Positions 972 to 20,265 of a DNA stretch of 32,484 nt are shown here, piece by piece (positions within the stretch are counted from its first letter, which is position 1; each line of letters begins with the position of its first letter). The stretch spans positions 1-32,484 of the forward strand of contig JANTGO010000006.1 of assembly GCA_024763015.1 (NCBI GenBank), given 5' to 3'. The stretch comes from Flavobacteriaceae bacterium (GTDB lineage: Bacteria > Bacteroidota > Bacteroidia > Flavobacteriales > Flavobacteriaceae). Both the position numbers and the translations under genes were made by a program. The notes beneath the pieces were generated by a model. It was not told the origin of the DNA. It was given only the letters and a program-made list of their open reading frames with translations, and did not search any database.

Positions 972-975
972 CTGT

Positions 976-1187
976 GTCAGGCCAAGTGTATTATGACGTA
1001 TAATGCGACATTCTTTTTGTCAAGAGTAAGGCATATAATTTTCAGTATAGCCACAGTTATTGGCAAAAAGAACAAGTCTTGGTTATGTTAATAATATACT
1101 TGACTTGGCACTAGGTTAAACAAGGTTTAACTTCTACGGGAACGTTACTGTAGTTTGGTGCTGTTAGTGGCGTTCCCTTTTTTTAGT
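976..1187 (+). ncRNA. Candidate structured small RNA 1 (rod-like, with own terminator)
   Basis: No protein frame fits here, but the plus strand folds into a long irregular hairpin. GCCAAGT (981-987) pairs with ACTTGGC (1103-1109). GTATTAT (988-994) pairs, with a bulge, with 1091-1099. An 11-bp helix joins 1011-1021 to 1062-1072 with one G-U pair. A second hairpin, 1113-1133, has a 9-bp stem and an AAG loop. The last element is an intrinsic terminator ending at 1184. Promoter element, structure and terminator all point the same way, giving a transcript of about 205 nt. The shape (long bulged rod) resembles 6S RNA, and a Bacteroidota 6S class (6S-Flavo) is known, but I cannot match its consensus from memory. 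The family is therefore open; that this is a transcribed RNA is moderately likely. Confidence 0.5.
1138..1184 (+). terminator. Intrinsic terminator of ncRNA candidate 1
   Basis: GGGAACG (1138-1144) pairs perfectly with CGTTCCC (1171-1177), the stem continues inward through 1145-1150/1165-1170 with G-U pairs, and seven T residues (1178-1184) follow. The U-run lies only on the plus-strand side, so it terminates rightward transcription. Confidence 0.75.
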
Positions 1188-1190
1188 TTT

Positions 1191-1354
1191 CACCTAAACT
1201 GTGTGATTATGTTCAAAGAAAAGGGCTAATGCTTTGAGATAGAAATGTTTGTAAAAAGCACAGGAATACCCCGTGGTATTGTGAACATTTTTACAAGTCA
1301 TTTACGCTCAAATGATTGGTTCTTTTCAAAGGAGATAATCACTCAATTTAGGTT
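1191..1354. ncRNA. Candidate structured RNA 2 or palindromic element: 164-base imperfect hairpin
   Basis: Nearly the whole segment is one bulged rod. Helices from outside in: 1192-1198/1347-1353 (7 bp), 1203-1210/1335-1342 (8 bp), 1215-1220/1320-1325 (6 bp), 1225-1229/1315-1319 (5 bp with a G-U pair), 1233-1238/1307-1312 (6 bp), 1243-1247/1299-1303 (5 bp), 1249-1257/1288-1296 (9 bp), 1259-1261/1281-1283 (3 bp), and an apical AATACC/GGTATT helix (1265-1270/1275-1280) closed by CCGT. That is about 55 pairs in nested order. The shape is that of 6S RNA. The strand is unclear: a consensus promoter on the minus strand (1437-1466) points into it, while the plus side has only an imperfect -7 element at 1184-1191. 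Neither end carries a U-run. A degenerate mobile palindrome is the alternative reading. Confidence 0.45.
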
Positions 1355-1539
1355 ATAGTAAGTTATCCCATAGGCAGTTTGTTTTATGAATTTTATTTAA
1401 ACAAATGATGCACGATATTATATAATGCATCTGCTACAAATATATAATAAAAAAATTAAATAGCAAGTGTTTTTTTTATCAAAAATTTTAAACATTTCCT
1501 ATAAATTATACAAATAACCAAAGAAAATATTAAGAAATA
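1355..1539. other. AT-rich spacer before the acetyltransferase gene
   Basis: Besides the minus-strand promoter at 1437-1466, this stretch holds a short inverted repeat (GATGCA 1407-1412 / TGCATC 1426-1431). No plus-strand TAnnTTTG element for the acetyltransferase gene could be found. Confidence 0.5.
1437..1466 (-). promoter_or_regulatory. Consensus minus-strand promoter (TTG-N19-TATATTTG)
   Basis: On the minus strand, TTG (1466-1464) is followed after 19 bases by TATATTTG (1444-1437), a full match to the Bacteroidota -33/-7 consensus. Start of transcription is expected near 1430, reading through the 1191-1354 rod toward the lipoprotein gene that starts at 863. It could drive a separate RNA or give the lipoprotein mRNA a leader of more than 500 nt. 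Confidence 0.5.
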
Positions 1540-20035: not shown

Positions 20036-20197
20036 ATACTAAACTGCTACCAAGATGCTACTTTAGAAAATGAATTATTTTTTCTTTGATTGATGTTAAA
20101 AAATTCTTGCATAGCCGTAGCTACGGAATGATTTCTTAATGAAAAGCAAAGGAAAAAGAAACGCTTTATATTCATCATCTTGGCAACAGTTTAGTAT
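20036..20197. repeat. 162-base inverted-repeat element (MITE-like)
   Basis: The ends are 22-base inverted repeats with two mismatches (20036-20057 and 20176-20197; ATACTAAACTG at the outside, CCAAGATG inside). The interior is loosely self-complementary and is centred on the perfect palindrome CCGTAGCTACGG (20115-20126). There is no coding frame. The layout fits a miniature inverted-repeat or intergenic palindromic element; a flanking duplication is not evident. It lies just upstream of the T9SS gene start, so it may replace or disturb that promoter. Confidence 0.6.
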
Positions 20198-20265
20198 AAG
20201 ATATTAATTTGAAAATTTAAAGATACTTATTTTTTTGAAATTAAAAAAATATTGTGAATGATTGT

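Follow-up and report, generated by a model that had tools for sequence, protein, structure and literature searches.

What is the long hairpin that separates a minus-strand lipoprotein-like gene from a plus-strand GNAT-like gene in this Flavobacteriaceae bacterium? Could it be an RNA gene served by its own promoter, or did it arrive there as a mobile element? A preliminary description, prepared from the sequence alone, had listed a 6S-type RNA, an antisense partner of the neighbouring RNA, a structured leader of the lipoprotein gene and a degenerate mobile palindrome. We examined the hairpin within the window, by which we mean the whole 32,484-nt stretch analysed (contig JANTGO010000006.1, positions 1 to 32,484, forward strand). 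With a probability of roughly 90%, it is a decayed non-autonomous transposable element of the MITE type, about 163 bp long, with 19-bp terminal inverted repeats and a palindromic interior. The features on which the argument turns are the following.

1192..1353, plus strand: probable decayed mobile palindrome (MITE-like), ACC...GGT, 162 nt; from the fold, a second copy in the same genome and 30 relatives with both ends
1192..1210, plus strand: left terminal inverted repeat ACCTAAACTGTGTGATTAT, 3 mismatches relative to the consensus ACCTAAATTGAGCGATTAT; read from the sequence
1335..1353, minus strand: right terminal inverted repeat ACCTAAATTGAGTGATTAT, 1 mismatch relative to the consensus ACCTAAATTGAGCGATTAT; read from the sequence
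1265..1280, plus strand: apex AATACC-CCGT-GGTATT; from the fold
1437..1466, minus strand: promoter-like motif TTG-N19-TATATTTG, directed towards the element; from a motif search in which 150 of 1000 simulated spacers also hold such a motif

Positions 1191-1354 of the plus strand fold into one unbranched, end-to-end hairpin of −63.3 kcal/mol. Shuffled versions average −30.1 kcal/mol (standard deviation 3.9, z −8.6) and 0 of 200 fold as well, which bears out the earlier claim that the nesting goes far beyond chance. The minus strand reaches −47.8 kcal/mol (z −6.6, 0 of 200 shuffles as good), and the segment is still exceptional when DNA parameters are used (z −5.8 and −6.0). For 1192-1354, 61 pairs are predicted (40 A-U, 15 G-C and 6 G-U), slightly above the approximately 55 pairs first reported; the coordinates of the 164-base structure, its nested order and its AATACC/GGTATT apex had been read correctly. 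In a strand-neutral palindrome register the same interval comprises 79 positions, namely 59 Watson-Crick, 6 G-U, 3 A-C and 11 other combinations. The natural unit of the hairpin is the 162 nt from ACC to GGT; its GC content is 0.33, and no frame of at least 60 aa in the open reading frame list overlaps it.

Is this hairpin present elsewhere in the genome? The assembly is a draft of 2.10 Mb in 201 contigs, 87% complete, and holds one further full-length match (contig 12, 22440-22602; 78% identical over 163 nt). Similarity between the two copies is confined to the hairpin, and the second copy folds as well (z −7.3). The copy count proposed as a check in the preliminary description thus comes to two dispersed full-length copies in the draft. 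The second copy is located between two genes that are, by their protein sequences, yihY-like and DUF2147-like, and the yihY-like frame receives its stop codon from the terminal ACCTAA of the element. These genes adjoin in 8 of the 11 congeners with a yihY orthologue, separated by 55-134 nt as against 228 nt here, and the end repeat is absent from the eight spacers (6-9 mismatches of 19); in the other three congeners a stretch of 700 nt holds no such gene. The pattern is most simply read as an insertion in this lineage. At the window locus the empty site is not readable because gene order differs in the congeners: eight have an orthologue of the GNAT-like gene, and on its upstream side six of these carry an acyl-CoA dehydrogenase-like gene, directly adjacent in five and past one small gene in the sixth, while the remaining two are covered on the downstream side only.

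BLASTN returned no full-length match in 59 relatives or in 298 other genomes of the family; short matches in 18 of those family genomes (longest 51 nt) were taken as chance. A covariance model of the focal element detected no copy in 12 congeners, where only a copy of the neighbouring repeat scored, at 24.8 bits. Searched in the genus with up to 3 mismatches, the pattern of the element's own ends recovered the four ends of the two own copies, and its five single matches elsewhere equal the five of a reversed control. When the genome_contigs collection (84,980 species according to its description) was searched with a two-ended pattern restricted to lengths of 146-176 nt, 30 further elements emerged in five MAGs: 21 in the Bacteroidales MAG 355-202, four in the Chlorobiota MAG CSMAG_422, three in the Bacteroidales MAG GMC4, and one each in Candidatus Scalindua sediminis and the Verrucomicrobia MAG OFTM167. 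These phylum labels are record titles, and misbinning is possible. Since no copy was found in the 12 congeners, and no full-length one in the 59 relatives or 298 family genomes, the link to the five MAGs rests on sequence, without an intermediate. Against the three GMC4 copies and one CSMAG_422 copy (L107), identity is 77-80% for the window copy and 83-86% for the second own copy. L107 is itself 94-95% identical to the GMC4 copies, and 95% identical to L104 of a MAG labelled Bacteroidales, despite the differing phylum labels, which suggests a recent transfer or a binning error. CSMAG_422 contains two subfamilies. Plasmid and phage collections gave no match to the window copy or to L100 as queries, and IMG/VR holds 0 exact matches to the end with the variant ACCTAARTTGAGCGATTAT.

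The dispersed copies share 19-bp terminal inverted repeats with the consensus ACCTAAATTGAGCGATTAT. Perfect 3-bp direct repeats flank 24 of the 30 elements in the MAGs, and 24 of 32 when the two own copies, both of which have none, are included. When flanks are shuffled among partners, the 32 elements show 3.8 such matches on average and never more than 11 in 2000 shuffles. The duplication is exactly 3 bp, because 2-bp and 4-bp matches occur in only 1 of 32 elements each. Open frames of at least 120 codons contain none of the 30. With at most 2 mismatches, 234 ends were counted in 355-202, 79 in Scalindua, 22 in CSMAG_422, 7 in GMC4 and 4 in OFTM167; the reversed-pattern control gave 0 in each. 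One pair among the four OFTM167 ends forms the element, and two further candidates there, L139 (inside an open frame) and L144 (without a close mate), were not accepted as elements.

The interiors are more variable. In the Scalindua set (14 stretches plus five earlier loci) we found 22 short end pairs, between 131 and 228 nt long; a 3-bp duplication accompanies 15 of these. The Scalindua and Verrucomicrobia copies have the common ends and interiors unlike that of the window copy; judged by eye, the Scalindua interiors consist of several short palindromes or hairpins inside a terminal stem. The Verrucomicrobia copy, which has a 3-bp duplication, is an almost full-length palindrome of different interior (−118 kcal/mol on the better strand), and a 59-bp element of CSMAG_422 with a 3-bp repeat comprises little beyond the two ends. 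As in MITEs, the end repeat is the constant part. As a separate observation, the Scalindua loci L173-L185, L108, L128, L133, L148 and L152 have modular interiors assembled from recurring short palindromes, e.g. GTAGCCGC...GCGGCTAC. Taken together, the dispersed second copy, the element-free site in 8 of 11 congeners, the many copies elsewhere, their common ends and the 3-bp target duplications in relatives speak for the degenerate mobile palindrome among the options first listed.

Does the adjacent plus-strand hairpin belong to the same family? This neighbour (972-1117, plus strand) is an internally shortened copy of a palindromic repeat whose family core of about 162 nt has the ends CTAGTGTCATG...; this family also matches contig 107 of the own genome and 8 of 12 congeners, and a single genome holds as many as 11 match pieces. 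The neighbour resembles the focal element in its core length, its end-to-end palindrome and its dispersed copies, but differs in its ends and in being present in those eight congeners, in none of which, nor in the other four, the focal family was found. The focal model R1 scores 17-25 bits on neighbour copies and 19 bits on another stretch (L108:559-714). We considered treating both repeats as one family and rejected this: the neighbour model R2 misses the focal element, and R1 scores on L108:559-714 as well. Nothing backs the proposed antisense partnership, the adjacent hairpin being of a different repeat family whose model misses the focal element.

Several observations concern this neighbouring family and its surroundings. 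A third long palindrome at 20036-20200 (plus strand; −42.7 and −48.9 kcal/mol) scores 57.7 bits with the neighbour-family model and has the ends TACTAAACTG...CAGTTTAGTA, reminiscent of the focal ends. Four neighbour-family copies (L022, L033, L034 and L038) carry a nested short insert, GCGGTGTNCTGAGCTTGCCGAAGTA-like, i.e. a repeat within a repeat. In two congeners a copy adjoins a tRNA gene (L017:1415-1664 and L037), the L037 copy being internally deleted. Between the two repeats of the window, at 1138-1184 (plus strand), lies a terminator-like hairpin GGGAACG...CGTTCCC followed by seven T.

Is the pairing of the focal family under selection? The window copy differs from three subfamily consensuses by 33-51 substitutions and keeps 53-58 Watson-Crick pairs. 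If substitutions of the same kinds are placed at random, 35-42 pairs survive on average, and 0 of 5000 randomisations were as good in each comparison. For the second own copy, 0, 1 and 3 of 5000 were as good; for seven copies of the GMC4 and CSMAG_422 types against the 355-202 consensus, 0-8 of 1000. Among the 20 full-length 355-202 copies (1-13 substitutions), 11 fell under 50 of 1000 and 9 did not. Because the observed pair counts exceed the randomised ones, pairing is preserved between subfamilies. It is kept better than neutral decay predicts, and a dead element alone would not explain this. Covariation calculated from the two own copies alone gave no such signal, as 116 of 500 shuffles reach the observed value.

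Tests for strand-specific selection as RNA were mixed. In 28 of 28 elements of the MAGs that could be aligned, and in both own copies, the plus strand gives the better fold. Across consensuses and copies, G-U and A-C positions stand at 2:0, 6:1, 3:2, 6:3 and 7:4, positions that are shared and hence not independent. Private changes in the 20 copies of 355-202, in counts that are likewise not independent, turned Watson-Crick pairs into G-U 14 times and into A-C 18 times, and other mismatches into G-U 16 times and into A-C once. Folded DNA, hairpin-templated repair or RNA are all possible reasons for the kept pairing. A broader reading, which we offer only tentatively, is that the 19-bp ends belong to a transposition system whose putative transposase mobilises mini-elements in MAGs that carry at least four phylum labels, and that the folded form itself may be selected, not the ends alone. 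Pair-preserving substitutions would then keep the Bacteroidales, Chlorobiota and Verrucomicrobia copies as one palindrome, selected as DNA (in transposition or repair) or possibly as RNA; this part, too, we regard as speculative.

How do other explanations fare against a MITE-like element? One alternative is a structured RNA gene whose hairpin is selected as RNA: 6S-like, antisense or another sRNA, read from the minus-strand promoter or off the plus strand. It could draw on the promoter-like motif at 1437-1466, on Watson-Crick pairing preserved through 33-51 substitutions to a degree that no randomisation reached, on the better fold of the plus strand throughout, and on the excess of G-U over A-C positions in each of the consensuses and copies compared. 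The motif, which is of the Bacteroidota promoter type, is indeed present, as the preliminary description stated. As a sign of transcription it is weak, because motifs of the class TTG-N17-20-TANNTTTG occur 8 times in the window on both strands, where 100 first-order Markov runs give 5.0 on average and at most 11, and because one or more turned up, on one or the other strand, in 150 of 1000 simulated spacers of 677 nt. Rfam has no match for the hairpin at gathering score, and among its four weak matches to 850-1600 with E up to 5 none is relevant and none is 6S. 6S RNA has a long closing stem with a large central bubble; the focal hairpin is nested with small internal loops only and has no such bubble. 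Together with the dispersal of the relatives, this leaves the 6S-type option unsupported. More generally, an RNA gene fits poorly with dispersed, intergenic copies flanked by 3-bp duplications, with private changes from Watson-Crick to A-C as frequent as those to G-U (although other mismatches changed to G-U more often than to A-C), and with Scalindua members that have the same ends and quite different folds; we consider it very improbable.

The hairpin itself might instead be the substrate of single-strand transposition (HUH, IS200/IS605 or REP-type), without a DDE transposase that recognises the ends. Pairing preserved between subfamilies would suit such a mechanism, as would the almost full-length palindrome of the Verrucomicrobia copy in spite of its other interior; moreover, DDE_Tnp_1 was not matched in two of the five MAGs, including the one with 234 ends. 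IS200/IS605 insertion is not known to produce a target duplication, however, and 24 of the 30 relatives have one; exact 3-bp duplications point to a staggered double-strand cut, and the Scalindua members form several short hairpins in a terminal stem and no full-length hairpin. We therefore hold single-strand transposition to be unlikely. Somewhat easier to entertain, though still doubtful, is a domesticated cis-element: a hairpin that acts on the stability or termination of the lipoprotein mRNA from within its long 5' leader. The promoter-like motif lies upstream and is directed through the element to that gene, and ERIC and Correia copies, as described in PMC10969869 and PMC2229807, offer an analogy in that they change transcript stability. 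Homologues of the lipoprotein gene, on the other hand, occur in only 2 of 12 congeners, and a genome-wide model search found no focal-family copy in those two.

If the hairpin is a MITE-like element, which enzyme moved it? An autonomous parent with the focal ends was found neither in the fetched loci nor through the two Pfam domains searched. Loci with a single end were assessed by eye from their open frames, and in the loci fetched no unpaired end is matched by another at an IS-like distance. None of the 17 DDE_Tnp_1 genes (in four of six genomes) has an end with fewer than 5 mismatches of 19 in the fetched loci. IS982 ends start with AC, and PF13612 was searched for this reason; this IS982-type domain is absent from the five MAGs holding focal-type elements and occurs in one of ten genomes, the own genome, as a fragment without a good end. 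Three long pairs of 2694, 1450 and 1575 nt, with one end at 4 of 17 mismatches, were dropped as chance, as was L186, an unpaired end at a contig edge. We infer that the likeliest mobiliser is a DDE transposase acting in trans. Such an enzyme would recognise the element ends and join the element to a target whose strands are cut 3 bp apart. The window copy would have landed in the spacer between the lipoprotein-like and GNAT-like genes, beside an unrelated palindromic repeat, and would then have diverged and lost its target duplication. If it has any effect today, this would be incidental: should the motif at 1437-1466 be used, the lipoprotein transcript would carry a stable hairpin in its 5' leader; a leader role for that gene would be a consequence of the landing place.

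The focal element is, like a MITE, short (under about 300 bp) and free of a transposase gene; it shares its terminal repeats with dispersed copies, and the relatives have target duplications. Bacterial MITEs as characterised in PMC10969869 and PMC2229807 are likewise small, non-coding and mostly intergenic, with terminal inverted repeats, target duplication and a long stem-loop; here, unlike in bacterial MITEs generally, near-identical 19-bp ends recur across MAGs of several phyla. ERIC/IRU of enterobacteria, described in PMC2229807 as a 127-bp unit that ends in TA and has a terminal repeat listed at 7 bp, is also a multi-copy, intergenic, end-to-end stem-loop, but the focal element differs in its ~163 nt, its 19-bp ends ACC...GGT and its 3-bp duplication, a comparison made on the published description. 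YPAL/RU-2 of Yersinia (168 bp), similar in length and palindromic character, is described in the same source as having internal inverted repeats, not being A+T-rich and producing duplications of 3-26 bp, whereas the focal family has terminal repeats and duplications of exactly 3 bp, and the focal element a GC content of 0.33. MITECca01 of Cardinium, according to the account in PMC9769881 about 240 bp and derived from the IS982-family ISCca4, is a short, non-autonomous, mostly intergenic element of Bacteroidota as well; it differs in length and in its known parent, and is set apart here on these described features. No description of the focal end sequence was found in the open literature searched, and the sole match to an end sequence, PMC3865298 (C. 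difficile SigD), is unrelated by its title. The focal element fits the description of known bacterial MITEs as given in these sources; what is unusual is its presence under several phylum labels and the maintained end-to-end pairing.

A suspected RNA gene thus becomes a traceable mobile element with a signature, ACCTAAATTGAGCGATTAT ends and a 3-bp duplication, by which its copies are therefore recognisable in searches for RNA genes. The family also prompts a question in two parts: what enzyme mobilises elements whose 19-bp ends are nearly identical in Bacteroidota, Planctomycetota and Verrucomicrobiota, and what keeps the interior palindromic as its sequence diverges?
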